Source of the DNA: an uncultured Bacteroidales bacterium
Lineage (GTDB): Bacteria; Bacteroidota; Bacteroidia; Bacteroidales; P3
Reading direction: 5' to 3'
Assembly (NCBI GenBank): GCA_900318835.1
Contig: ONLW01000026.1
Location: forward strand, 1-38,252
DNA: 38,252 nucleotides
Program-made: the position numbers and the translations under genes
Part shown: piece after piece, positions 16,495 to 30,600 of the stretch
Layout: each line of letters begins with the position of its first letter
Numbering within the stretch: the first letter of the stretch is position 1
The notes under the pieces: model-generated
Told to the model about the DNA's origin: nothing
Databases searched by the model: none
What the model saw: only the letters and a program-made list of their open reading frames with translations

Positions 16495-17975
16495 GAGCCG
16501 CTGTCCATCGCCGCATCTACCTTGTGCTGCTAACCCTTCTGGGCAGCTGCATGGTAACCAGCATTGGCATATCCAATGTCGTGTGGCCGTTGCTGCTGGC
16601 TAACTGGGTCCTCGAAGGCCGCTGGCGCGAGAAATGGCAGATGGCCCGCGGGAGCCGCCTGCTACAGGCCGTTGCCGTGCTTTTCCTACTGCATGCCGTT
16701 GGGTTGTTGTGGACAACGAACCTCCCGGCGGGATTCCATGTCATGGAGCGCCTGTTACCCTGGCTGGCAGTACCATTGGTGGTCCTCACCTCCCGACCTC
16801 CTGAAGGGCGCGCCCGAACCACCATCCTCAGCCTCTACGTCGGTACTGTCTTCGCGGTCACGGTGATAGGTCTCGTGCGATGGCTCACCCTTCCTGACCT
16901 CCCCTACCGCGACATCGTGCCCTTCATCTCCCACATCCGCTTTGCCCTCAATGTCTGCATGGTGATCTTCATTGTGGGGAAATGGGCCATGGAACGCCGT
17001 CATCCTGTCGGCATAGTATTCATTCTCTGGTTCCTTGCCATCCTTTTCCTCCTCCGCTCTTACACGGCCTTTGCTGTGCTGCTGGCGGCCTCGCTGGTGG
17101 TGATTCTCCACTTGCGTCGCCGCTGGGTGTGGCTGGCGGTATGGATAGCCGTGGCAGGAGGCATAGTAACCTATGTAGCAGTGGAACACCACTCCTACTA
17201 CCGGCTCTCCCCTCTTGCCATCGAGCCGCTGAAGCCCCTCACAGCCAACGGCCGCCCCTACGAACACCTGCAGGACGGCATGGTGGAAAACGGCAACTAC
17301 CTGAACAACTACCTCTGCCGCGATGAATTGCGCACGGCCTGGCCCCAGCGCAGCCAAGTACCCCTCGACAGCCTCACCGCCTCGGGCTACAGCATCGAAG
17401 CCTCCCTCATCCGTTACCTCAACGCCCTCTCGCTCCCCAAGGACAGCCTCGGAGTGATGATCCTCACTGACGAGCAGGTGGAAGAGATAGGCCGCGGTGT
17501 GGCCAATCCTATCTACGAGCATGGTTCAACGCCACGCAAGATGCTATATGTCATGTTCTTCGAGTACGAGAACTACCGTTGCTACCGTGCCGTCGAGGGT
17601 TTCTCCATGCTACAGCGCATCGAGCTGTGGACCGTAGCCTCGCACATCATCGGCTGCCACCTCTGGACGGGTGTCGGCACCGGCGATCTCGGCGACGCCA
17701 TGGAGGAGGACTTCCGCCTCACTGGATCGCCCCTTCAGAAGTCCGAACTCCTGCCTCACAACGAATACCTTACGCTGATGGCCATGCTAGGAATCCCGGC
17801 CTTCGTGCTGCTGGCGTTCTTCTTCTTGCGTGCCACCCCGCGACTGCGCCATCAGGGGCTGCTGCTGGTGGCCTGGACCGTTGCCATCCTCGTCTCCTGC
17901 CTCACCGAAAACACCTTCGACTCCCTCGCGGGCATCCTCTTCTCCACCTGGTTCATGGCCTTCCGGAATAGCTAG
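16491..17975 (+). CDS. O-antigen ligase/polymerase-like membrane protein
   Basis: The 494-residue polytopic protein begins at GTG 16491, inside the stop region of the protease gene. Membrane segments fill residues 8-230 and the last 80. Between them is a large soluble loop (about 235-390). The loop ends with GVGTGDLGDAM, and then LLPHNEYLTLMAMLGIPAF, the HNEYL-type motif of the Wzy_C/WaaL superfamily. These enzymes join or polymerise lipid-linked glycans on the periplasmic side. No other glycan genes are beside it, so the substrate is open. Its stop overlaps the stop of a small minus-strand gene by three bases. Confidence 0.75.
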   Translation: MRAAVHRRIYLVLLTLLGSCMVTSIGISNVVWPLLLANWVLEGRWREKWQMARGSRLLQAVAVLFLLHAVGLLWTTNLPAGFHVMERLLPWLAVPLVVLTSRPPEGRARTTILSLYVGTVFAVTVIGLVRWLTLPDLPYRDIVPFISHIRFALNVCMVIFIVGKWAMERRHPVGIVFILWFLAILFLLRSYTAFAVLLAASLVVILHLRRRWVWLAVWIAVAGGIVTYVAVEHHSYYRLSPLAIEPLKPLTANGRPYEHLQDGMVENGNYLNNYLCRDELRTAWPQRSQVPLDSLTASGYSIEASLIRYLNALSLPKDSLGVMILTDEQVEEIGRGVANPIYEHGSTPRKMLYVMFFEYENYRCYRAVEGFSMLQRIELWTVASHIIGCHLWTGVGTGDLGDAMEEDFRLTGSPLQKSELLPHNEYLTLMAMLGIPAFVLLAFFFLRATPRLRHQGLLLVAWTVAILVSCLTENTFDSLAGILFSTWFMAFRNS

Positions 17976-18191
17976 ATAGCAGGTCTCCAGCCCCGCTGGG
18001 CGTAGTCCTCGACGAAGCCGTAGAAAATGCACCTCCTGGTTAATCTCCACCGGCGCCACGGGGCCGACACTGACCTGCAGTTGTCCGTAGTCGACGCCTT
18101 CCGGCGAGAAGCATTCCCTGTTCATCCTCACGAAGAGGTTCTCTTCGGTCATCATATTATACGTATCTACATAAACGCCATGGTTTTCCAT
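17972..18191 (-). pseudogene. Small conserved-looking gene with a one-base frameshift
   Basis: ATG at 18191 opens a frame reading MENHGVYVDTYNMMTEENLF and onward to INQEVHF. It then goes out of frame in a run of four T. Removing one T gives FYGFVEDYAQRGWRPAI and a TAG at 17974-17972, exactly abutting the convergent gene. Without the correction the frame runs on to 17787 through sequence antisense to the ligase-like gene and rich in Gly, Glu and Arg, which is not protein-like. I do not recognise the family (about 73 residues when repaired). It may be a true pseudogene, a sequencing error in the T run, or a programmed shift. Confidence 0.6.
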
Positions 18192-18272
18192 ACTGGTAGG
18201 TGCTCCGTGTGATTTTTGAGGGAATTCCGTCGGGGGTGTTTGGAAAGTTAGATGAGTTTAATGGAAATAAAA

Positions 18273-18296
18273 AAAAGAAGACCACTGTCTTCTTTT
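18273..18296 (-). terminator. Original chromosomal terminator of the tRNA-Leu operon, now cut off
   Basis: AAAAGAAGAC pairs with GTCTTCTTTT around CACT, and on the minus strand it ends in eight T. It directly follows a GGGCACCA sequence, the 3' end of a tRNA read on the minus strand, but no tRNA body lies to its right. This fits a terminator parted from its tRNA by insertion of the element. Confidence 0.7.
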
Positions 18297-18303
18297 GGTG
18301 CCC
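18294..18303 (+). other. attL core
   Basis: TTTGGTGCCC, identical to 27309-27318 and in the same orientation. Joining the element ends here restores an integrase frame that continues through 18304-18411 to a TAG at 18412. Confidence 0.7.
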
Positions 18304-18414
18304 ATAACCGAACTATTCTCGAACTCCTTTCTTGAAGACTTGGAAAAGATATGGTCGTTGCGGTTCTATATTCCCGACCCGACAAAACCCATTCCACCGC
18401 CAAATATTAGATAG
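18304..18414 (+). pseudogene. Displaced 3' end of the integrase gene
   Basis: In the frame fixed by the att core (TTG GTG CCC), 36 codons follow and end in TAG at 18412-18414. They read ITELFSNSFLEDLEKIWSLR, then FYIPDPTKPIPPPNIR. This looks like real protein and has no start of its own. In the circular form it would complete the integrase at 555 residues. The small minus-strand gene ending at 18427 lies 12 bases further, a neat tail-to-tail arrangement that supports this reading. Confidence 0.65.
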
Positions 18415-18426
18415 GGCATTGTGTTC

Positions 18427-18624
18427 TCAACCGACCATCCTGACAGACCGACGTTCCTCCTCCAACGTTTCTACGAATTTGTTGACACGGCATAGCATTG
18501 CAAAAGAGGTGTCATCGTCGCACCTATTATACAGGGAGCAAGTTAATGCCTTGAGCGAAATGATAATGGTGTCAGAGTCCATAAGTTTTACTTTCTTCCT
18601 CATTTGAGAGTAGGAAATTTTCAA
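18427..18624 (-). CDS. Small protein of unknown function in the element
   Basis: I do not recognise this 65-residue protein. It may start at residue 1 or at M8 (MRKKVKLMDSDT). It is largely helical-looking and charged, with LMDSDTIIISLKALTCSLYN and VNKFVETLEEERRS. Support for it being a gene is the strong promoter upstream on the same strand (18699-18730), a leader of about 70 bases, and the sharp end just before the displaced integrase tail. Confidence 0.55.
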   Translation of the reverse strand: MKISYSQMRKKVKLMDSDTIIISLKALTCSLYNRCDDDTSFAMLCRVNKFVETLEEERRSVRMVG

Positions 18625-18698
18625 CCCTATTTGATTCTCAAAAAGTTATAAAATCGTTCTTATAAGGCGTTCTTTTCTTTATCTTGTGTTTTCAGCGA

Positions 18699-18730
18699 CA
18701 AAGATACGATTCTTTCCTCATTCCACCAAA
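18699..18730 (-). promoter_or_regulatory. Promoter for the 65-residue gene
   Basis: On the minus strand: TTTG (18730-18727), a 20-base spacer and TATCTTTG (18706-18699), a full Bacteroidales consensus. Confidence 0.8.
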
Positions 18731-18769
18731 CTTTTTTCCAAAAACACGGCAGATATACTGATTTTATAG

Positions 18770-18777
18770 TATATTTG
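18770..18777 (+). promoter_or_regulatory. -7 box just before the NADAR gene
   Basis: TATATTTG ends 7 bases before the ATG at 18785, so the mRNA may be leaderless or nearly so. No clear -33 TTTG is seen at the right distance. Confidence 0.5.
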
Positions 18778-18784
18778 TTGTGAT

Positions 18785-19318
18785 ATGGTAGCAAAACGAT
18801 TCTATAAAGAGACAGAAAGCATCCTTTTCAACTCTCATATTGAAGAGTGGAGGATATTGTCGAATATGCACCCTTGCAGGATATATTACAATGGGTTGCA
18901 ATTCGGCAGTAGTGAAATGTTGTATTGGTGGCTGCGGTTCCAAGGGGAAGGCAAGGAACGTCAAGCGGTCAGAAACAACCTCATTACTCAACGTGGGTAT
19001 TGGAACGGCTTTCGCTGTAAGAAAATAGCCCAAGCCAACAAACACCTGATGGATGCAAGCATCAGTGAATGGGATTGCCTGTTGATTGCTCTTGAAGCGA
19101 AAGTGCGATGTTGTGCCGAGTTCAGGGATGCCCTGTTCAGTAGCAGGGGCAAGCACTTGGTAGAACTTGCCCCTTGGGATGCCGTCAAGTACGGTGCTGT
19201 CCTGAACAAGCAGAGTGGACTGATTGAGGGAGGCAACGGCTGCGGTCGCTTGATGATGTTGGTGAGAGATAGGCTGTTCAACGGGAAGTATAGCGAGGGT
19301 CAGTCGGACATCCGATAA
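18785..19318 (+). CDS. NADAR-family protein (YbiA-like; ADP-ribose/riboflavin-linked N-glycosidase fold)
   Basis: The 177-residue protein fits the NADAR family (PF08719, formerly DUF1768). Seen in order: an LSNMHPCRIYYNGLQFGSSE segment (25-44), where family members have LSNF-P and an SSE motif; IAQANKHLMDAS in the middle; VELAPWDAVKYG near 130; and GGNGCGRLMMLVRD near 153-166, the family's G-N-x-x-G-x-x-L-M-x-x-R signature. Known members hydrolyse N-glycosidic bonds in riboflavin intermediates or remove ADP-ribose from guanine bases. In mobile elements the latter could counter DNA-modifying toxins or host defence. It lacks the usual N-terminal YQ-KF text in part, so activity is not certain. 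It ends 8 bases from a convergent small gene. Confidence 0.72.
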   Translation: MVAKRFYKETESILFNSHIEEWRILSNMHPCRIYYNGLQFGSSEMLYWWLRFQGEGKERQAVRNNLITQRGYWNGFRCKKIAQANKHLMDASISEWDCLLIALEAKVRCCAEFRDALFSSRGKHLVELAPWDAVKYGAVLNKQSGLIEGGNGCGRLMMLVRDRLFNGKYSEGQSDIR

Positions 19319-19324
19319 ATGTCC
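19306..19324. terminator. Short hairpin between convergent genes
   Basis: GGACAT (19306-19311) pairs with ATGTCC (19319-19324), spanning the NADAR stop. It is small and has no long T tract, so the terminator role is tentative. Confidence 0.35.
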
Positions 19325-19326
19325 CC

Positions 19327-19584
19327 CTATTCAAATAAATTCAGTGACTCACTCATTCTTCTAACCAACTGCATTGTCTTGCAAGACGGATTCAACCCTC
19401 GTCTATGATAGTCACCAAGCAGGACAGACAAAGCCTGTTTCAATTTCTTGTACTCGGTCTGATTTGCTTTCTCATCAGGAGATATCTCAAACCACTCTCT
19501 TTTCAAATTGGAGACTCTGTCAACGTAGGTCTCGACTGCATTGTGTTCGCGCGTGGCAAACTCGTTTTGAATTTTTATATTCAT
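19327..19584 (-). CDS. Small charged protein of unknown function
   Basis: The 85-residue protein is helical and charged: FATREHNAVETYVDRVSNLK, then EWFEISPDEKANQTEYKKLK and a final LLGDYHRRGLNPSCKTMQ. I do not recognise the family. A full consensus promoter lies upstream (19620-19651). The gene runs towards the NADAR gene, with an 8-base gap between the stops. Confidence 0.65.
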   Translation of the reverse strand: MNIKIQNEFATREHNAVETYVDRVSNLKREWFEISPDEKANQTEYKKLKQALSVLLGDYHRRGLNPSCKTMQLVRRMSESLNLFE

Positions 19585-19619
19585 ATGTATAAAATTATAT
19601 AATTCCTAACTTACAGGTG

Positions 19620-19651
19620 CAAATATAAGAAAAACTTTTCAATCTACCAAA
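19620..19651 (-). promoter_or_regulatory. Promoter for the 85-residue gene
   Basis: On the minus strand: TTTG (19651-19648), a 20-base spacer and TATATTTG (19627-19620). Confidence 0.8.
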
Positions 19652-19798
19652 CATTTTAACATTTGAATTTGCCCGTCCTGTTCTGTGCCTTTTATATTCT
19701 ATTTGCATATATTTCATTTTATATCCGCGTCAACAAGCACAAATATAAAAAGGTTTATCCAACTGACCATATCTTTAACACTTGCATGAACTACGTAT

Positions 19799-19840
19799 CC
19801 TCTCGCATGGTTTGAGAGGCCATATTGAACCATATTGAAC
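19799..19840. repeat. Hairpin and tandem 10-base repeat in the intergenic region next to the replication gene
   Basis: CCTCTC (19799-19804) pairs with GAGAGG (19814-19819), and CATATTGAAC occurs twice in tandem at 19821-19830 and 19831-19840. This lies just past the 3' end of the primase-like gene. It could be a binding site for the replication protein or an origin. Otherwise 19652-19878 shows only a further TATATTTG box on the minus strand (19740-19747). Confidence 0.4.
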
Positions 19841-19878
19841 TTTGCCTTCAGCGTGTGCCGTTCCCGAAAAAAAAATTT

Positions 19879-21177
19879 TCAGGATTTCTTGATATACTTG
19901 GCAATGCCGTGTTTCTTTCTCCATCGTTTAAGTGTGGAGAGGCTGATGTGCAACCCATAGTCAGCCATTGTCTTGATGTTCTCCGCGTCGGTCAGTTGGA
20001 AGTCGTAGAGTTCGCCTATTCTCTCATCATTCCACACTGCCTTTGCCTTTGCCACGGCTGCCTTCGGCGATATTCCAAGGCTCTCCCAATACTCCATATA
20101 CACCTTGTATTTGCGTTTGTCATGCCCTTTGATGGTTATCTCGTCAATGGGTTTGTTTAACACTGCTTCGGCAACTCGTAGAATGAAGTCTTGATTAAGT
20201 ACACCGTCGGAGTTGTCGTAATAATGCGAGACCTCATAAGAAAGGCAGTAAACAAGATGCTCGGCGGTAATGTCGGGCTTTATCTTTCGGATGATGAGTG
20301 CTGCGGTATATAGTCTTTTTCTGCGTCCCTCGCCGTCTTTCCATATATGGATGCGTCGTTTTTCAGTATCCCACTTGCGATATATGCAAATGTAATTCTC
20401 ATCGATTGGAGCGTAGCCATTGCGGTATGATAGTTTGCTTTCCTCAATGCGTGGGTACATACGGCAATACTTTGAGACGAATCTCCCCAATGACAACTCT
20501 TCAAAGTCTTTCATAAAAGTGTCATTGCATACAATAACGCTCTCTTCTTCTTTCTTTATTTTCTGCTTTGACACTTTCTTCCTCTTTCCTGATGGCATAC
20601 CTGTCGCTGCGGTCGGGATGGTGTAGATGTAATTGGAGCATATCAACCGACAAGAGGGTAAGCCATTCCCGAAGATGGGCTGTGCTGTGCTGCGTGTACA
20701 CCTGTCTTTCAGTTCACCCATACCACCTTCCGTTTGCATCGTATCAAACAACGATACATACTCCTCATTCCCTTTTATCTTACCATCGAAACAGTAGATA
20801 AGTCTATAGCGATAACCTTTGCCCTCTATACCGTTGCTTGTGGTAGTATAGGCTATAGTGGGCTGATAGGTCAGCGTGGAAAGATACTCCTCCATCTGCA
20901 TGGTGTTGTCGTCTATGTCATAGGCAATATACGACGTATAACGGAAGTTGCCCTGTGTCTTGGTGGAGTTGGTGAATGGCTCATCGTCATCATCGTAGCA
21001 ATGGCAGAAGGAATGTCCTTCCTTGATTAGTCCGCAAAGAGAAGAAACCGTTACGGATTGCTTTCTGTATGTCATCTTGCTTGATGCTTCTGCAAAGTCC
21101 TCTTTGTTCTTATGGCAGGTGGTCGAGACGCTGATATTGAAGGTGTAGCCGCTTGATGCAACCGTGTAATTTAACAT
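19879..21177 (-). CDS. Primase-like replication protein with C-terminal helix-turn-helix
   Basis: The 432-residue protein has an N-terminal part with YIAYDIDD (84-90) after a beta-rich segment, then IAYTTTSNGIEGKGYRYRLI (108-127) and a CFD motif. The D-x-D and the later T-T-T/RYRL segments resemble the archaeo-eukaryotic primase fold found in replication proteins of Bacteroidetes mobile elements. I cannot see every expected active-site motif. A Lys-rich linker follows (PSGKRKKVSKQKIKKEEE). The end, residues 370-430, has ISPKAAVAKAKAVW and LHISLSTLKRWRKKHG, a helix-turn-helix suited to origin binding. It is the element's best replication candidate. The call rests on motif shape, not on a named family. 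Confidence 0.55.
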   Translation of the reverse strand: MLNYTVASSGYTFNISVSTTCHKNKEDFAEASSKMTYRKQSVTVSSLCGLIKEGHSFCHCYDDDDEPFTNSTKTQGNFRYTSYIAYDIDDNTMQMEEYLSTLTYQPTIAYTTTSNGIEGKGYRYRLIYCFDGKIKGNEEYVSLFDTMQTEGGMGELKDRCTRSTAQPIFGNGLPSCRLICSNYIYTIPTAATGMPSGKRKKVSKQKIKKEEESVIVCNDTFMKDFEELSLGRFVSKYCRMYPRIEESKLSYRNGYAPIDENYICIYRKWDTEKRRIHIWKDGEGRRKRLYTAALIIRKIKPDITAEHLVYCLSYEVSHYYDNSDGVLNQDFILRVAEAVLNKPIDEITIKGHDKRKYKVYMEYWESLGISPKAAVAKAKAVWNDERIGELYDFQLTDAENIKTMADYGLHISLSTLKRWRKKHGIAKYIKKS

Positions 21178-21240
21178 AAATTATTTGAGATTAACCCGTT
21201 AAACAAAAGTGAGGCAGACCCATTCTGCCCCTGTCACGCT

Positions 21241-21248
21241 CAAATATA
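21241..21248 (-). promoter_or_regulatory. -7 box upstream of the primase-like gene
   Basis: The site reads TATATTTG on the minus strand, 63 bases upstream of the start. No clear -33 element was found. Confidence 0.45.
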
Positions 21249-21308
21249 CTATTATTTGAGGAAAAGTCGCCATTCCTGCTCAATATTTATTGAAAAATAT
21301 ATTGAACT

Positions 21309-21476
21309 ATGGGAAAGAGAATAAGACGCGGAGCATCAACCGCAACGAAATACAAGATGCGCTTGGCAAAACTTGGAAGCCGAAACCCAATGTATGGCAA
21401 GCACCATACCGAGACCACTAAGAAAAGGATTAGTCAGACGATGAAAAACTATTGGAGAAGCCTGTATTTTGACTGA
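21309..21476 (+). CDS. Small NUMOD3-like peptide
   Basis: ATG 21309 to TGA 21474-21476 encodes 55 residues. The core NPMYGKHHTETTKKRIS matches the NUMOD3 pattern (NPMYGK-H-ETKKKIS), a short DNA-binding motif normally found in tandem in GIY-YIG and HNH homing endonucleases. The N-terminus is basic (MGKRIRRG). No nuclease domain is present before or after it in any frame, so it is either a remnant of a homing endonuclease or a stand-alone DNA-binding peptide. It starts in the divergent region upstream of the primase-like gene. Confidence 0.6.
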   Translation: MGKRIRRGASTATKYKMRLAKLGSRNPMYGKHHTETTKKRISQTMKNYWRSLYFD

Positions 21477-21643
21477 TATTCCCCACTAATAAGGTTGCTT
21501 TGAGGCGTGTGGGTTGTTTATCCTTGTTCTGCGCATCTGTAATAGGCACAAGAATAGGCGATTGCCAAACAGTCTATCCGAGTATGGGTTGTAATAAGAA
21601 CACCATAGCCAATAAAACAGAGGAAAACACCGTGTGGCATGTG

Positions 21644-21886
21644 CTACTGTTTCTTTTTTGATATTTTCTGACGAGCCGATGAGACAATCAACTGACCCAC
21701 TCTGATAACACACTTGTCGTTGGTGTAGCCTCCTACGGTACTAATCCGCATATCCCTCATTTTTCTGTAGTTTACACCCAATTCCTCGGCAGTCCAATGT
21801 TCAAACATAGCAGTCACACTGCCATAGTAGTAATGCTGACCACCTTTTTCAAGATGTACCACTTTGAGACTCTTTACCTTATCCAT
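21644..21886 (-). CDS. Small protein of unknown function
   Basis: The 80-residue protein reads MDKVKSLKVVHLEKGGQHYY, then SVTAMFEHWTAEELGVNYRK and a Lys-rich end. I do not know the family. A TATCTTTG box lies 24 bases upstream and an inverted repeat overlaps the likely -33 region, so it may be autoregulated or controlled together with the divergent WYL_2-like gene. Confidence 0.65.
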   Translation of the reverse strand: MDKVKSLKVVHLEKGGQHYYYGSVTAMFEHWTAEELGVNYRKMRDMRISTVGGYTNDKCVIRVGQLIVSSARQKISKKKQ

Positions 21887-21910
21887 ATCTTATATTATTT
21901 TTACCAACTG

Positions 21911-21952
21911 CAAAGATACGAATAATCGTACAAATATAAAATAATAGTACGA
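21911..21952 (-). promoter_or_regulatory. -7 box and operator-like inverted repeat
   Basis: TATCTTTG lies on the minus strand at 21918-21911. TCGTAC (21926-21931), 15 bases, then GTACGA (21947-21952) forms a perfect two-sided repeat across the -33 region. A second TATATTTG lies inside it (21938-21931). Confidence 0.55.
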
Positions 21953-21978
21953 CTTTTAGCTTTATTTAGCTTTTAATT

Positions 21979-22010
21979 TTTGGCCATGTCGCACATTTAT
22001 CGTATCTTTG
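21979..22010 (+). promoter_or_regulatory. Promoter of the SH3-barrel gene
   Basis: TTTG (21979-21982), a 20-base spacer, TATCTTTG (22003-22010). The start codon is 62 bases downstream. It is divergent from the promoter of the 80-residue gene. Confidence 0.8.
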
Positions 22011-22072
22011 TACTGTAAACAAAAGGGATAATAGACAAAATAACCAAATTAGAAACAATAAATCAACGAGTT

Positions 22073-22438
22073 ATGGAAAACAACCTCATCACCAACACCT
22101 GCAAAGTTATGTCAAACGTCGCCGTAGTCAACGAAATCAACGCCATTCGCGCACAGGTCATCGCCAATCGTACATCTTCCGTGGTCAATGGGATTGCAAA
22201 GGCTGCTATGATAGCCATCGCAAAGGAGAAGATGCGTAGCGGTGTATGCCACTTCGTTTATTGCAAGAAAAACGGTGAACTTCGAGAGGCTTTCGGAACG
22301 CTTACCCCTGCCCTCGTCGAAGCAACCACCACAGGCTACGGGGAGAGCCGAGAGCGTTATTTTACCTCCGCCTACTATGATTGCGAGAAAGGCGGTTGGC
22401 GGTCGTTCCGTTGGGAAACCATCGTAAAGGTGTACTAA
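22073..22438 (+). CDS. SH3 beta-barrel (WYL_2/DUF2693-like) protein
   Basis: In this 121-residue protein, residues 1-55 are helical. The C-terminal half (SGVCHFVYCKKNGELREAFG, then GYGESRERYFTSAYYDCEKG and WRSFRWETIVKVY) matches the Sm-like SH3-barrel group WYL_2, common in Bacteroidetes mobile elements. The role is unknown; WYL-type folds sense nucleic acids or small molecules. It has its own strong promoter and is followed after 143 bases by the small serine recombinase. Confidence 0.65.
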   Translation: MENNLITNTCKVMSNVAVVNEINAIRAQVIANRTSSVVNGIAKAAMIAIAKEKMRSGVCHFVYCKKNGELREAFGTLTPALVEATTTGYGESRERYFTSAYYDCEKGGWRSFRWETIVKVY

Positions 22439-22581
22439 TCCGCTGCGGTGGGTGGGGAGGTCGCCACTCCCCACCTGTCAAAACAGGTCAAATAATGAGA
22501 CAGGTCAAATAAATCAGAAAAGTCTGCGAAAATAGCACGTCAGGTATCAGAAGTTAAACATCAAAAAAGTCAAAGATTATT

Positions 22582-23232
22582 ATGAGCCACACAGAGAACA
22601 ACACCGCAGCCATCTACGCGAGAGTATCATCAACCACAGACCGACAGAACACCGAGAGACAGGTAATAGACCTGACGGCATATGCAAACCGCAACAGCCT
22701 TAACCTTGTCAAGATATATGAAGAGCATATCAGCGGTGCCAAGAGGAACGCCGAAAGACCTGTGCTGATGGACTGCATAGAGTATTGCAAGGGCAACCAT
22801 GTCGGCACTCTCCTTGTATCGGAGTTGAGCCGTTTGGGTCGAAATACCTTTGAAGTGCTTGCGACCGTCCGCGACCTTGTGGACTGCCATATCAATGTGT
22901 ATTTCCAAAAGGAGCAGATGAACTTGCTCGACGGGAACGGCAAGCCGAGTCTGTTCACGCCGATACTGATTGCAACATTAAGCACCTGTGCTGAAATGGA
23001 ACGCGAGAACATACAATACAGACTGAATAGCGGTCGCAGAGTGTATATTGAAAAGGGCGGTCAGTTGGGAAGAAAGAAGGGCAGCGTCAAGAGTCACGAA
23101 CAAAAAGAAGAACAGTATAAAGACGTGTTGGCATACCTTGGCAAAGGCTATAAAATAGCCGATATTGCCAAATTGACAGGCACTTCCACAAGCACCGTAC
23201 AACGGCTAAAGAGAGAGTTTCAAATTAGATAA
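22582..23232 (+). CDS. Small serine recombinase (resolvase/invertase family)
   Basis: The 216-residue protein has the resolvase catalytic domain: YARVSS with nucleophile S16, VSELSRLGRN near 75, and the long helix with AEMERENIQYRL near 140. The C-terminus has YKIADIAKLTGTSTSTVQRL, a Hin-like helix-turn-helix. Length is right for a resolvase or invertase. It could resolve multimers of the circular element or invert a segment; I found no pair of long inverted repeats that would mark an invertible segment. A strong terminator follows. Confidence 0.92.
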   Translation: MSHTENNTAAIYARVSSTTDRQNTERQVIDLTAYANRNSLNLVKIYEEHISGAKRNAERPVLMDCIEYCKGNHVGTLLVSELSRLGRNTFEVLATVRDLVDCHINVYFQKEQMNLLDGNGKPSLFTPILIATLSTCAEMERENIQYRLNSGRRVYIEKGGQLGRKKGSVKSHEQKEEQYKDVLAYLGKGYKIADIAKLTGTSTSTVQRLKREFQIR

Positions 23233-23261
23233 GATAAAGCAAAACCATCGTATTGCATAGA

Positions 23262-23294
23262 GTTTTTCAGGATAAGCAGATTGTCCTGAAAAAC
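23262..23294 (+). terminator. Terminator after the small recombinase gene
   Basis: GTTTTTCAGGA (23262-23272) pairs perfectly with TCCTGAAAAAC (23284-23294) around an 11-base loop. It separates the recombinase transcript from the RNA promoter that follows. Confidence 0.7.
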
Positions 23295-23300
23295 ATTTCT

Positions 23301-23331
23301 TTTGCCAATTCAAATAAAATGCGTATCTTTG
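23301..23331 (+). promoter_or_regulatory. Promoter of the structured RNA
   Basis: TTTG (23301-23304), a 19-base spacer, TATCTTTG (23324-23331), a full consensus. Transcription would begin near 23336-23340, about 290 bases before the next start codon. Confidence 0.85.
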
Positions 23332-23335
23332 CACT

Positions 23336-23570
23336 CGCAAACCAATAGTTGGGTTTGTCGAGAGAAAGCGCATTTTCTCTATTCCGCCTGACCGTGAAAC
23401 TTGGACACTTTCACAAAAGTAAAAAGTCGGAATAAGGTAAATGGATTCTCACTTGAATTGTATTCGTCTCTCAACGATATACAACCAAGTGGGGTACATT
23501 CAAGAAACCTTATCTACTTTTTACAATCAATGGGAGTCCAAGCCCTACGGTCAGAGATAGGGTAATATGG
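23336..23570 (+). ncRNA. Structured RNA of unknown class upstream of the zinc-ribbon genes
   Basis: The stretch has no good reading frame but dense pairing. There are two 5' hairpins: CAAACC (23338) with GGTTTG (23352), and AGAGAAA (23361) with TTTCTCT (23374). Then comes a long rod: CTGACCGT (23388) with ACGGTCAG (23547); CTTGGAC (23400) with GTCCAAG (23536); GTAAAAAGT (23419) with ACTTTTTAC (23516); ATAAGGT (23432) with ACCTTAT (23507). After an 11/15-base open bubble the rod is capped by CACTTG (23450) with CAAGTG (23486) and TTGTAT (23458) with ATACAA (23479). Alternative pairs exist: GTGAAA (23394) with TTTCAC (23409), and CTTGAAT (23452) with ATTCAAG (23498). The 3' end is not clear; it may be a long mRNA leader. 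I do not recognise the class. Confidence 0.65.
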
Positions 23571-23630
23571 ATGGCTCCACTTTCTTCGTTATATTATATT
23601 CTCTCCGAGCCGAGAACAAAAGGAAAGCAA

Positions 23631-24371
23631 ATGGCACTCATCAAATGTCCTGAATGTGGAAAAGAAATTAGCACCAATGCTGAGGAATGTCCTAATTGCG
23701 GACTTCCTATAAAAGAATTGGAGGAAAACACTAAGAAGCATACTACCAAAGCACTCAATCAAAGTATCCCAAAGGTTCCATTCTTTGATGCAATCCCTTG
23801 GTGGATTAACCCCATTATTATTGGTCTTTCCCTCATTGGTGTTGTGATAATGATTATAGTATTAAACAATAATAATACCGAATTGCAAATCCAAAAACCA
23901 CAACCACAAGTGTCTTCCAATAGCCTTAGGGCAAACAGTAATCAAGAAAATACGGTTTCTTCATGGAGATATGAAACAGGAACGAATGAACAAGGTTATT
24001 CATACCGTCAGGCTCTGATTGTAGATAAAGAAGAAAAGGGTATTTTGTATATGCAATATGTGCCTGATGACAACCGATGTGCAGGCTTAAATGATAAAGT
24101 TCTTATTGTTTCGGTTCCTGAAAATACAGTTAGGATTTCATTCCAATTTGATGGGAACAATATTATTCCTCTTGAACCGTCTAAAAAAGGAGAGAGTCCC
24201 GTTATGAACACGGGCGTTTCAGTTGTCATTAGTGATGAGTGTCTCGGTTTCGGTAAAATCATGGAAGAAATACATTCGTCAAATATTTGCACTGTCACGG
24301 CTGTCCAAAATGATGGTACTTCGACAACATATACGTATAATGTTAAAGAGTTGGATTGGTTATACTTTTAG
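23631..24371 (+). CDS. Zinc-ribbon membrane protein 1
   Basis: I start at ATG 23631 (MALIKCPECGK), because the paralogue downstream begins with the same residues; the frame is open upstream to 23571 without protein-like text. The 246-residue protein has a zinc ribbon (CPECG, then CPNCG, residues 6-25), a charged linker, one membrane segment near 63-85 (WINPIIIGLSLIGVVIMIIV) and an outer domain of about 150 residues, mostly beta. The zinc ribbon is predicted inside and the domain outside the membrane. I do not know the outer domain. It lies 60 bases after the structured RNA and 48 bases before the second zinc-ribbon gene. Confidence 0.75.
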   Translation: MALIKCPECGKEISTNAEECPNCGLPIKELEENTKKHTTKALNQSIPKVPFFDAIPWWINPIIIGLSLIGVVIMIIVLNNNNTELQIQKPQPQVSSNSLRANSNQENTVSSWRYETGTNEQGYSYRQALIVDKEEKGILYMQYVPDDNRCAGLNDKVLIVSVPENTVRISFQFDGNNIIPLEPSKKGESPVMNTGVSVVISDECLGFGKIMEEIHSSNICTVTAVQNDGTSTTYTYNVKELDWLYF

Positions 24372-24419
24372 AAACTATTGATAAGTAGAAAGAACTAATG
24401 AATAATAGCATATATTGAT

Positions 24420-25241
24420 ATGGCACTAATCAAATGTCCTGAATGTGGAAAAGAAATATCTGATTCCGCAAAACAATGTCCTCATTGTGGTTACAAATCA
24501 AGGAATCTAAATGATTTACCCGATATTGGAGGGGCATTTTCATCCGTATTGTCATTCATCTATTCTTTGTTCAAAGATGGAAGATATTGGAAAGCGTTAA
24601 TCATACTCGCCATCAGTGTTACCCTTGGGGTATTGTCAATCTATTATGCCTTTGAATCATGGTGTATGGATTGGATTCTTTTCGTCGGAGGTATTTTGCT
24701 TTGTCTTACAGGCACTTTAATACTGTTTGTGAGACCCATTGAGTTCAGTCGAAACAGAGCAAGTGGTAGAGTTATGAAATACTCTATGTTTCTTTTGATA
24801 TTAGGCTCGTTTGCTATTGTTTCTCATGGTGTAGTACGAGTAATTAACCCACACGCATTTTCTTATTACGACGAGGATTACAAATACAACAATTCCTCTG
24901 ACAATGATAGTGAAAGAGATGGTGTCTCTCAGGGGTCTCAAAGGGGTTCCGTTACGGGGACATACACCTTTGACTTAGATGGCGAGGTTTATAAAGTTGT
25001 ATTAAACGAAGATAATACTGCGCAACTAATATATGAAACAGGTACAACGTACTATGGTCATTGGCGTATATTATCTTTTGGGCCTGATGCTCAGTTTGAA
25101 ATAAGAACTCCAACTCTCGAAAACCCTTATTTAACAGGGAAAATTCACATATATTTTAGAGAAGGATATACATACTTTGATTACGACCAAGTGATGTCTA
25201 AGTCTCCTGTAAAAAGGTTTCCTTACGCAAAAACTAAATAA
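24420..25241 (+). CDS. Zinc-ribbon membrane protein 2
   Basis: The first 13 codons are almost identical in DNA to those of the gene upstream (37 of 39 bases by eye). The 273-residue protein has a zinc ribbon (CPECG, CPHCG, residues 6-25), three likely membrane segments between 58 and 145 (ALIILAISVTLGVLSIYYAF, ILFVGGILLCLTGTLILFV, YSMFLLILGSFAIVSHGVV), a Ser/Asp/Asn-rich linker, and a C-terminal beta domain from about 180 (GTYTFDLDGEVYKVVLNE). The bodies of the two proteins are not alike. This suggests a shared sensing or anchoring module with different outer parts. Confidence 0.75.
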   Translation: MALIKCPECGKEISDSAKQCPHCGYKSRNLNDLPDIGGAFSSVLSFIYSLFKDGRYWKALIILAISVTLGVLSIYYAFESWCMDWILFVGGILLCLTGTLILFVRPIEFSRNRASGRVMKYSMFLLILGSFAIVSHGVVRVINPHAFSYYDEDYKYNNSSDNDSERDGVSQGSQRGSVTGTYTFDLDGEVYKVVLNEDNTAQLIYETGTTYYGHWRILSFGPDAQFEIRTPTLENPYLTGKIHIYFREGYTYFDYDQVMSKSPVKRFPYAKTK

Positions 25242-25253
25242 TCGTATATTTTT

Positions 25254-25349
25254 ATGGGCGACCTTGGCAGTCCCTTCAAAGTGGAGGTTCTCGGATTTAT
25301 GCGAGATATACCGCAGCACACAACAGAACAGATGAACTCTGTTAGCTAA
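25254..25349 (+). CDS. Possible 31-residue peptide
   Basis: ATG 25254 to TAA 25349 encodes MGDLGSPFKVEVLGFMRDIP and 11 more residues. It is 12 bases after the second zinc-ribbon gene and is followed at once by a strong terminator, so it would be the last item of that transcript. Composition is protein-like, but it is short and no family is known to me. Confidence 0.35.
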   Translation: MGDLGSPFKVEVLGFMRDIPQHTTEQMNSVS

Positions 25350-25360
25350 AAAGAACATCT

Positions 25361-25389
25361 AAGCGACTCCGACGAGTCGCTTTTTTTTT
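25361..25389 (+). terminator. Intrinsic terminator of the zinc-ribbon transcript
   Basis: AGCGACTC pairs with GAGTCGCT around CGAC and is followed by nine T in total. It is the strongest terminator in the element. Confidence 0.92.
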
Positions 25390-25419
25390 GACCCAAACGA
25401 CAATTATCGAAAAAAATAG

Positions 25420-25427
25420 TATATTTG
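25420..25427 (+). promoter_or_regulatory. Possible -7 box for the integrase operon
   Basis: TATATTTG, about 190 bases before the 49-residue gene. No clear -33 element. The rest of 25428-25619 holds only very short frames with no convincing gene. Confidence 0.4.
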
Positions 25428-25619
25428 GATTAGATAGATGGAAATATGGATGTTTGTTTAACGGGGAAAAGAAAGGAGATAATATGACAGGATAGGCAGT
25501 GATTTAGGTTGCGTTCACCCTACAGCCGATAGATAGTCTGTTACAATAATATGTACATGGCGAGGCGACAAAAGCGCACCAAGAATAACCGCATCAGCGG
25601 ATGATAGCGAGAATGATGA

Positions 25620-25761
25620 ATGCTGAATTTAAGCGAGTGCAAGAAAATATTGAATGCAGACAAGAGGAAATATACAGATGAAGAGGTCAAACAAATCAGA
25701 GACTATGTTTATTTTGTCGCGAAATTACAAATAAAAATGGAACAATTAAATACAAGTAAAG

Positions 25762-25769
<8 letters not shown>
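25620..25769 (+). CDS. Small protein translationally coupled to the integrase
   Basis: ATG 25620 to TAG 25767-25769 encodes 49 residues with protein-like text: LSECKKILNADKRKYTDEEV, then RDYVYFVAKLQIKMEQL. The stop overlaps the integrase start (ATGAGTAG), so the two are coupled. The product could be a directionality factor or a regulator of the integrase, but that is a guess from position. The frame is clearly different from the other two, which are broken by stops. Confidence 0.65.
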
Positions 25770-27423
<1,654 letters not shown>

Positions 27424-27430
27424 TTTTTTG

Positions 27431-27513
27431 TGCCCAGGACAAGACTTGAACTTGCACCGCCTATGGCGACTACCCCCTCAAAGTAGCGTGTCTACCAATT
27501 CCACCACCTGGGC
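27431..27513 (-). tRNA. tRNA-Leu (anticodon GAG)
   Basis: Acceptor GCCCAGG pairs with CCTGGGC; the anticodon stem CTACT/GGTAG encloses TTGAGGG, giving GAG. Long variable arm. The CCA is not encoded (CAA follows). It is first in the operon, 35 bases before tRNA-Leu(CAG). Confidence 0.94.
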
Positions 27514-27537
27514 TTCTTTCTCTCTCGAAAGCGGGTG

Positions 27538-27568
27538 CAAAAGTACGAACATTTTCCGATACGACAAA
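27538..27568 (-). promoter_or_regulatory. Promoter of the tRNA-Leu operon
   Basis: On the minus strand: TTTG (27568-27565), a 19-base spacer, TACTTTTG (27545-27538). The -7 region and following leader are nearly the same as at tRNA-Asp (906-942). Confidence 0.85.
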
Positions 27569-27637
27569 ATATTTTTTGAAGATTTTTCTTAATTCGTTGG
27601 AATCAAGTGCGATAAATTTGTGTTACTGATAAATATT

Positions 27638-27681
27638 AACCCCGCAAACGGCTCTTGATGGAGTCCGTTTACGGGGTTTTT
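27638..27681. terminator. Hairpin after the 1515-residue gene
   Basis: CCCCG and AAACGG pair with CCGTTT and CGGGG with one mismatch. A T-run follows on the plus strand and A+T-rich sequence on the minus strand, so it may act on both. Confidence 0.65.
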
Positions 27682-27695
27682 AGGGTTGTTTTGTT

Positions 27696-30600
27696 TTATT
27701 CGTCGCTGTCGTCGGGATGGGCGGCACGGCTGAACATCTGGAGCCAGTTGGGTACGTAGTTTTGTACGTTGCCCACATGGTAGTAGAATGTTCCGAGGCC
27801 GTCTTTCGAGATCTTGCGCTGTTCGGCAGAGAGGGTTTTGATCTGGTCATCCCAGGTGCCGACGGAGCTGTAGAGGGTGAGGTCCTGCGTTTGGCTGTCG
27901 AAGTAGAAGAAGTACCAGTGGTCCTTGGCTGCTTCGATGTAGAACTTCATCTTCTGGTGGCCTTTCTCCATGTATATCTGGCCTCGGATGGTGACGGTGA
28001 CACCGAGGGGCTTGTTACCGACGCCCACAAGGCCTACCTTGCCTTCGCAGTAGAGCCCAAGGGTGGGGGAGTACTGCCAGCGGATGTTGTCGAAAAGCAG
28101 GGTGGAACGCATGACCTCTGGGATTTTCTCGAATTCGCCGGTGGCGCTATAGGCGGCATAGACGGCACCGCCTTGGTCGGCACCGAGGTGGTGCATAAGG
28201 GCGTGGCGCATTTCTGCGTTGGTGGTCATGCCGACGGGGTTGAGACGCAACTCGTTCTTGAAGTTGTCGGCCAGGGAGTTGATAACCTCTGTGGCGAGGG
28301 GGAAGGTGAAGCCGAAGACGGTGGTGAGCTGGTCGTCATCATCGTTCTTGATGCCCACCGTGGCGGATCCGTAGGAGTAGAAGGTGGCCTGTGTGCGCTT
28401 GCGCGCGAAGTTGACGGGACCTTCACCTTCGACGATGCAGTCGGCGGTGGAGAGGGCCAGGTAGGGCGAGACGTAGTCGTCAGGGTGGTTGACCTTTTCC
28501 TCGGAGGCGATCATGTATTGCTGTCGGTCGCCGAGGTAGGTGAGGACGCCGTGAGCCGCGAGGAGCTCGTTGTCAGCCACCTTCTCGTTGGTCAGGAAGG
28601 CTGCATGGGGGCGGAGGTTATTCTTGTCCATGAGGATGGAGGCGGTGATGCGGTTGCCTTTCCAGTCGGTGGGCAGTTCGGGCACGGTGACGTGGACATG
28701 TTCGGGGTTGGTGTAGTCGGCATAGGCCAGCAGGCCGAGCTGAGCTTCGGGGATGCAGGGTTGGATGAGGCGCACACCACCCTCGAAGAAAGGCCAGCGC
28801 TGGTCGCCTTCGAGGCGTACCTTACCGGCAAAGCCGAAGGCTGAGCTAAGGGTGAAGGAGGCCTCGTCGGCAATCTTGCCGCGGGCCACGGTGATGCCGT
28901 TCTGCACGGCGATTTCGTCGAAGAATATCTTCTGGATTTTCTGCTGGTCGTTGTGGAACTCGTAGTTGCCCTTGCCGGTGAAGTTGTCGCCAGCGGTAAC
29001 GATGAGGTCGGCATCGGTGAGGTAGTGGTAGGCGCTGTCGCGGTTGAAGACGAGCTGTGCCTTGTTGAGCACTTTCATCTCGCCGCCCTTGTTGATGTGG
29101 AGGGTGTCGGCAGCGGGGGCGATGGCGGCATCGGCCACGTTGATGAGGAAGACTCCATGGCTGGAGAGTTCCCCTTCATTATATTTATAGGTGCTCAACA
29201 GCGAGTTGAAGGAAAGTTCGTTGCGCTTGGGGTCGGTGCTGGTGAAGCGCACACCCGGCATGTCGCCAGCCTTGGGCAGGCGGAGACGGAGTTCCATGGC
29301 GTCGAGGCCCTCGGAGGTGCTTCGGGTGGAGTTGGTAAAGGTCAGCTCCTTGCGGTCCATCTCCCAGGCGAAGCGGTCGGCCCAAGCCTCATAGCGTGCC
29401 AGCTGGAGGTCGCTGCGGACGAGACCATGCTTAGACTGGAGGTCGGCATGACGGGTGTCGTAGTTGACGGAGGAACTGACGTTCTGGGCAGAGAAGGCCA
29501 TGGTCTTGAACTTGCTGCTGCGGAGTGTGAAATCGCTGACATCGGCATCCATCTGGCGTGAAGCCAAGGCGAAGTGCTGTGAGGTGAAGGATGCCTCGCG
29601 CACGTCGGCTGTGCCGGCGGCGGCAGCGCCCTTGGGCATGAGGTCGACGCGGCCGCGGAAGGTGGCGTCGCCGCGATACATCCTGAACGGTCGCTCCATA
29701 GAGGCCACGGCCATGGAGTCAGCATAGGGAAGCCAGTGGAGGCTGGTCTTGCCGTTGGCAATCTGCGGGAAGCCCTGCTCCTCGCGCACACTGATGGTGT
29801 CGGTGACGGCCACTGTGGAGTCGAGGAGGAAGAGGTAGTCTTTGGAGCGCGAAGTAGAGGTCAGGTACTCGAGTTTTCCGTTACCGCGAAGGCCGCTGTG
29901 GTCGAGTTTGAGCTTCTTGGTGTACTGACCTTTGCCGCCATAGGCGGGATAGCCCTCGGTCGGTGTCTGGATGCTGAAGCCCAGGTAGTAGTCTTTCTGC
30001 ACGCGCAGTGGCTCGTTGATGTCGGGAAAGATGCCACCGGAGGTGAGTACACCGGTGAACTTCAGGCTGTCGGCAGCGATGTCGACCATGCTGTTGATGG
30101 TGAATGGCAGGAGGGTGTAGTAGAAGCGGTCGCGCACATACTGTCCGCCCTGGATGTCGGGGGCGTCGTAGAAGACATTGCTGTTCTCGAGGCTACGGAA
30201 GATGGGGTATTCTTTGTTCTTCACCAGTCCGCAGTGGTTGTCAGGCTTGTCGACCTCGAGGGTACCCACGAGGTTGGAAAGCGGTGTGCGCACCAGTTGC
30301 TCATATTTGTCGGGTGTGATGAAGTCGGGCACGTAGAACTCCATACGGACAATCTTGGGCATGTTGAAGCTGAAGGTCTCGTAGTTGAAGTCGCAGTCCT
30401 TGACGGTGAGCATGAACTTGCCCACGTCGATGCGGCCGCTGAAGTGGAGGGCGCGGTTGCGGTCGACGATGACTTGGTAGCCTGTGAGGGAATCGGGATA
30501 GACGGCCACCGACTGGCTGTCGGAGACCACGAACATCTCAATGCCGCGGATGGTGAGCTTGTTGTCCTCCAGACTCAGTCGGGCGTTGGTGCCCGAAGTC

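Follow-up and report, generated by a model that had tools for sequence, protein, structure and literature searches.

Attenuating riboswitches with contacts between loops include the cobalamin, lysine and purine classes. The PUT and EAR processive antitermination RNAs lie at 5' positions, act in cis and belong to accessory operons, and 6S RNA is the product of a single independent gene and binds RNA polymerase. In Bacteroidota, few leader switches are known to us. Rfam lists the DUF805 and DUF805b RNAs (RF03081, RF02914) as cis-regulatory, and two papers describe Bacteroidetes motifs that include 6S-Flavo, Bacteroidales-1 and Bacteroides-1 (Weinberg et al. 2010, PMC2864571) and a Bacteroides 6S RNA with product RNAs (Ryan et al., PMC7366714).

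The RNA reported here, found in a window of 38,252 nucleotides from an uncultured Bacteroidales bacterium, is probably a cis-acting, switch-like attenuator leader. It resembles the cobalamin, lysine and purine riboswitches in its 5' leader position, in a junction with a loop-loop helix, in apparently exclusive antiterminator and terminator helices, and in its tandem and multiple copies; it differs in that no Rfam family reached its gathering score on the copies scanned, and it is a putative riboswitch only. With PUT and EAR it shares the 5' position, the action in cis and the accessory operons, but its short subtype differs by a competing terminator helix of its own. The rod-like outline is common to 6S RNA and 6S-Flavo, whose single-copy behaviour the window RNA lacks; from the Bacteroides 6S RNA of Ryan et al. 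it is set apart by copy number and position. The DUF805 and DUF805b RNAs are leader elements of the same genomes but are separate (68 and 35 positions) and do not match the window RNA. No Rfam 15 family reached the gathering threshold on the RNA itself in the window or in sets of 12 and 11 further loci, and permissive scans of 23290-23660, of locus L002 and of eight loci with weak matches to our first covariance model returned only sub-threshold, chance-like matches. A literature search, which reached few subscription papers, found no earlier description of the RNA.

The locus in the window

The module is bordered by two terminator-like stem-loops, one upstream at 23262-23294 and one at 25361-25389 that resembles an intrinsic terminator on the forward strand (stem-loop 25361-25382 plus a T-run); both bounding terminators of the preliminary description were thus recovered. 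So was the promoter that it had assigned to the module, which is of the Bacteroidota type, lies just 5' of the RNA (23301-23331) and comprises TTTG at 23301-23304 and TATCTTTG at 23324-23331; the promoter, the RNA and the two genes behind it are all on the forward strand. The segment 23336-23567 has a predicted folding energy of -79.1 kcal/mol, whereas its shuffled versions average -48.6 (z -6.9, equalled in 0 of 200 shuffles), which bears out the earlier proposal of a structured RNA. The length of about 230 bases then given was too short, since the match to covariance model R1 (191 bits) covers 23337-23613 and ends 17 nt 5' of the ATG at 23631.

The genes encode membrane proteins of 246 aa (protein 1, 23631-24371) and 273 aa (protein 2, 24420-25241). 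Both have an N-terminal Zn_Ribbon_1 domain and align with each other over residues 1-32 only, so that the nearly identical zinc ribbons previously remarked on are indeed there. Since the two gene starts are near-identical in DNA (a 38-nt repeat with 97% identity), a recent duplication of the gene start is suggested. Relatives of protein 1 occur in 10 of 59 genus genomes; those outside its own genome align to no more than its first 98 residues. Its N-terminal part is also matched by 41 loci in viral contigs. An R1 RNA stands directly before a zinc-ribbon gene in the window and in genomes G012 and G051, unlike the other seven genomes, in which the protein 1 relatives do not adjoin an R1 RNA among the matches listed (G046 has a weak R1 match about 1.6 kb away), and the RNA and the zinc-ribbon genes therefore do not seem to be an obligate module. 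The dedicated module first envisaged, with the RNA always before zinc-ribbon membrane genes, was not supported, as most RNA copies precede other, unrelated genes. Homologues of the proteins without the RNA had been named as evidence against it; most protein 1 relatives do not lie beside R1 among the matches listed, and on this ground the zinc ribbons were also set aside as partners of the RNA.

Two serine recombinases flank the module. The large serine recombinase at 25762-27513 ends within a tRNA-Leu gene (27311-27395, minus strand), consistent with integration at a tRNA gene. Within 17900-27700, searching for repeats turned up no att-like direct repeat of at least 18 nt by which the ends of a mobile element could be placed. 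Near the mobile region lies a NADAR-like protein (18785-19318; sub-threshold Pfam match, E 1.6e-5), which is possibly defence-related.

Covarying helices in two subtypes

The source genome contains a diverged copy of the RNA on another contig, located, by our reading, after a phosphomannomutase-like and before a lipoprotein-like gene. A DNA search with this copy gave matches in 61 of 99 related genomes, many of them full length and several genomes having more than one; the shortest matches resemble promoter ends. An exact 20-mer from its 3' end was found in 117 stretches of the genome collection, and the 80 of these that were listed come mostly from metagenome assemblies with the label Bacteroidales or Bacteroidetes. 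At E <= 0.01, model R1, built from 49 copies, had matches in 16 of 19 genomes of the same genus and in 1 of 12 belonging to other families. With the limit at E <= 1, it was found in 52 of 59 genus genomes, the richest of which had 12 matches. From 102 matches, L105 and L108 were removed and duplicates merged to leave the 89 copies that are counted below as the long subtype.

Compensatory change was measured by exchanging the strands of a helix between sequences, a negative z denoting pairing that is lost on swapping. For the long subtype, 114 rows gave 84 segmentable sequences (30 were dropped) and 68 nonredundant ones (64 for the 3' hairpin), with kinship handled by this redundancy filter only. 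The helices that covary are the 5' hairpin P0 taken from the fold prediction (23337-23357; z -13.1), P1 (23388-23395 with 23547-23554; -25.6), the loop-loop helix H2 between L2 (CUUGGAC, 23400-23406) and L4 (GUCCAAG, 23536-23542; -13.4), P3 (23419-23427 with 23516-23524; -24.6) and the UUCUC/GAGAA stem of the 3' hairpin (23599-23616; -9.2), where the values for H2 and P1 may lean upward because H2 and two pairs of P1 were already paired in the model used to fit the A3/A4 alignments, a model in which P3 and the strands a, b and c introduced below are unpaired. Four negative pairs gave z between -2.3 and 0.6 in this test, and negative pairs over all swap tests between -2.3 and 1.5. At one pair of H2, both sides had changed in 17 of 49 sequences. 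These helices are directly supported by their covariation, and the perfect paired segments originally picked out in the window thereby reappear as pairings that covary among homologues. Weaker values were obtained for CTTATTCC/GGAATAAG (-3.0), GGAATAAAGG/CCTTTATT (-4.8) and a:b (-3.3). The swap test gave no covariation support in the long subtype to AGAAAG (23363-23368) with its putative partner CUUUCU starting at 23580 (z -1.9), where AGAAAG is nearly invariant and offers little variation to test, or to a candidate pseudoknot between GGCUC of strand c and the complementary, nearly invariant GAGCC in the loop of the 3' hairpin (z -1.5).

The outline seen earlier as a rod with an open bubble is best read as a four-way junction whose side hairpins P2 and P4 touch via their loops. 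P2 (23394-23414, strands 23394-23399 and 23409-23414) encloses L2 and shares its first two bases with the end of P1; in its own test, where positive means better pairing within sequences, its z was 7.0 for the long subtype and 4.8 for the short one. P4 (23532-23545, GGG[AGUCCAAG]CCC) is conserved, with no covariation beyond its GG..CC in the model R2 data for the short subtype (z 0.3). A plain rod with an internal helix may be an alternative geometry. The idea that the P2 hairpin and the rod helix exclude each other was dropped, since both covary, though not equally, and can coexist in a loop-loop contact.

Strand a (23446-23455) and strand b (23486-23494) lie in the apical arm of P3, and b is complementary both to a and to strand c, which is GGCUCCAC and is followed by the U-rich UUUCUUCGUU (together 23573-23590), a region that aligns with strand c plus the U-run of the short subtype. 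In the long subtype, b and c form at least six contiguous pairs in 67 of 68 R1 copies, the U-tract is imperfect, and c is invariant, to a degree overstated because many of the sequences were gathered by an exact 20-mer containing c. The conserved ATGGCTCCACTTTC (23571-23631) is an open frame that continues into the zinc-ribbon gene of the window (266 aa from 23571), and the frames differ in other copies. A leader peptide from the conserved ATGGATGGC is disfavoured, as the T-stretch downstream of it varies in length between copies.

The short subtype was reached through weak R1 matches and is described by model R2, built from seven such RNAs. At E <= 0.1 it has matches in 23 of the 25 genomes scanned within the genus and in 5 of 16 from other families; at stricter settings it was found in 89 of 294 Bacteroidales genomes (64 of 178 genera) and in 14 of 296 genomes of a phylum sample, 12 of them outside Bacteroidales. 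The 14 consist of the source genome, one more member of Bacteroidales, ten from other orders of the class and two from outside the class, and among the copies of these other orders and of the other class, several show the competing a, b and c strands by eye. The best R2 match in the whole window is 23359-23590, with the U-run placed on CUUUCUUCGUU (E 0.029, weak alone), and an unfiltered search of 451 nt gave E 0.0013. In the source genome, R2 has nine matches at E <= 1, of which the five lower-ranked have, on visual inspection, the competing strands as well, in some cases with a weak U-run.

In the short subtype, b pairs either with a at the tip of the rod or with c just 5' of a U-run. The swap test, on 59 nonredundant of 74 copies (56 to 59 sequences per test), gave z -24.8 for P1 and -24.6 for P3, and, with 57 or 58 of the 59, -9.6 for a:b and -11.0 for b:c against 0.2 for the a:c control. 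At least six T within 10 nt, counted from the last base of c, were present in 56 of 59 copies. Strand b is thus directly seen to have two competing partners beside a U-run, and mutually exclusive antiterminator and terminator helices are supported by covariation in this subtype. With strong compensatory change in both subtypes, the covariance check proposed earlier, for which a lack of such change would have counted against the RNA, came out in its favour.

Tandem short copies precede one gene at two loci, which are closely similar to each other. DUF805 and DUF805b RNAs lie directly 3' of short-subtype RNAs at loci L327 (1707-1772 and 2671-2739) and L322 (1709-1744); two leader RNAs can evidently be stacked before one gene.

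Position of the RNA and the genes behind it

Of 89 long copies, 86 have a TAnnTTTG box about 13 nt 5' of where the model begins, compared with 39 of 1780 random windows. For the short subtype, in which a promoter box within 110 nt upstream was counted, the figures are 47 of 73 and, in the control, 124 of 1460. Adjacency was defined as a same-strand ORF of at least 80 aa starting between -45 and +200 nt from the RNA, and copies with less than 400 nt downstream were omitted, keeping 87 of 89 long and 72 of 74 short. Such an ORF adjoins 81 of the 87 long copies (median gap 25 nt) and 59 of the 72 short ones; for divergent genes, taken as a control, the figures were 26 of 83 and 11 of 69, and a same-strand control window 600 nt upstream contained ORF starts in 35 long and 32 short copies. 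The excess is strong for the long subtype and, because of the 32 copies in the same-strand control, moderate for the short. The interquartile range of the distance to the start codon is 20 to 43 nt in the long and 28 to 75 nt in the short subtype. By the same rule, 13 of the 72 short copies lack an adjoining ORF, and some (L261, L263) are set apart from the next gene, which can have a promoter-like box of its own. Judged by position and promoter box, both of which are observed directly, the RNA is located in a 5' leader. The possibility that the rod is a mobile or standalone RNA was discarded, as the ORF positions argue otherwise for most copies.

Some R1 leaders (e.g. L061, L064, L120) are followed, within 110 nt and ahead of the start codon, by a further small conserved element: GUUGCGCCCGACACGnAUnAGGG occurs in 20 of the 89 long copies, and a different type, beginning CGAUGGGCCGAUG, in 10 of 89. 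The GUUGCGCCCGACACGnAUnAGGG-type element in L241 has no Rfam match.

The downstream genes, many of them for surface proteins and some for phage defence, are diverse and do not indicate a ligand, and the zinc-ribbon genes are one cargo among many of the leader family. By a simple hydrophobicity and lipobox rule, export-like products are encoded behind 62 of 81 long and 27 of 59 short copies. The background, taken from other ORFs at these loci, is 185 of 624; it consists of longest ORFs and may include false genes. A BspA-type repeat family accounts for 12 of 78 nonredundant long-subtype proteins. The 49 short-subtype proteins include restriction, methylase, PLD-like, helicase and sugar transferase domains, one to three each. 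In the source genome, three of the four best R2 matches lie before genes for a methyltransferase-like protein, a helicase of DISARM- and PLD-like character, and another methyltransferase-like protein, of type IIG or type I.

Copies on viruses and plasmids were also sought. The exact 20-mer of the long subtype had 0 matches in viral contigs, and viral spread of this subtype was rejected on this count. A short core motif was found in 16 viral contigs, and two of the ten scanned with R2 carry short-subtype RNAs (L341, 12086-12302, and L350, 10942-11148, both in IMG/VR); the gene start behind the L341 copy is zinc-ribbon-like by its CxxC motif, by eye. Plasmid records had no match to the RNA, and phage records had none to one short-type copy; searched with the window RNA, 34 phage records matched, and among the 20 listed the alignment was to the promoter end only.

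A probable switch-like leader and its alternatives

Transcription would start at the RNA's own promoter, and the nascent RNA would fold a sensor core in which P1 closes the junction of P2, the long arm P3 and P4, with L2 paired to L4 and strand b held in the apical arm of P3. In one state, b would pair with a, the arm would be closed and transcription would continue into the gene; in the other, b would pair with c, which in the short subtype would form an intrinsic terminator. Both the conditional termination and this direction of control are our inference from the competing strands. In the long subtype, a weaker U-rich tract follows c, which could also pair with the GAGCC loop of the 3' hairpin; this hairpin ends 14 nt 5' of the start codon, and the leader may here act on translation or by altering termination. 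Termination itself is doubtful in the long subtype since there is no perfect U-run. The choice between the states would be made by a signal, for which a small molecule or second messenger is our guess. We favour a riboswitch as the sensor in view of the conserved core, the lack of an obvious protein partner common to the controlled genes, and the tandem copies.

The conserved nucleotides around the junction could also be the binding site of a regulatory protein in place of a small-molecule switch, possibly of the zinc-ribbon proteins, before whose genes a long-subtype RNA stands in G012 and G051 as well. We regard this as unlikely, since unrelated genes lie behind most leaders and, with the short subtype present in many genomes, the partner would need to be general and not encoded by a neighbour. 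About equally unlikely is a processive antitermination element of the PUT or EAR kind, in which the nascent RNA would bind RNA polymerase and let it pass terminators further along in horizontally acquired genes; the b:c helix would then be a by-product or a second layer. A large, structured RNA near the 5' end of transcription units, with accessory cargo such as surface proteins, restriction-modification and sugar transferase, would fit such an element, but the covarying rival helices a:b and b:c beside a U-run are what an attenuator needs and are superfluous for antitermination.

The terminator-like 3' end of the short subtype, the separate promoter-like box after some copies (L261, L263) and the 13 of 72 short copies with no ORF start nearby would suit a family of trans-acting small RNAs with their own terminator, the next gene being transcribed separately. 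However, the gaps of 20-43 and 28-75 nt are mostly too small for a promoter plus leader, the long subtype has no clear terminator and tandem copies precede a single gene, so that this explanation appears slightly more improbable still. The 6S-like RNA binding RNA polymerase that the preliminary description had considered is very improbable. Its rod outline and apparent internal bubble are there, but the bubble is accounted for by the P2/P4 junction, several copies occur per genome, mostly before a gene, and neither 6S model matched: RF00013 had no match at E <= 10 in the source genome and RF01685 none in 25 genus genomes. Since the genus's own 6S RNA was found by neither model (the named control genomes with a match are all non-Bacteroidota), the analogy was given up mainly on copy number and position before ORFs, which outweigh the missing match; the RNA is a multi-copy leader and not an independent single-copy gene. 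The long regulatory leader, mentioned at first only as a fallback, is well supported by promoter box, ORF adjacency and covariation.

For the switch-like attenuator leader, we tentatively put forward, as a possibility that is somewhat on the improbable side when all its parts are taken together, that the family is a new Bacteroidota riboswitch class, present in many copies in some genomes and responding to a common small molecule or to an infection- or stress-linked second messenger, through which it would set one regulon spanning surface lipoproteins, proteins with BspA-type repeats and genes of phage defence, mobile-element cargo included. If this is right, one RNA class with no Rfam match would link the control of surface proteins to that of restriction and defence across gut, rumen and other Bacteroidota. 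Since many genes lie behind its copies, the signal that sets surface and defence expression would then be testable with one RNA.
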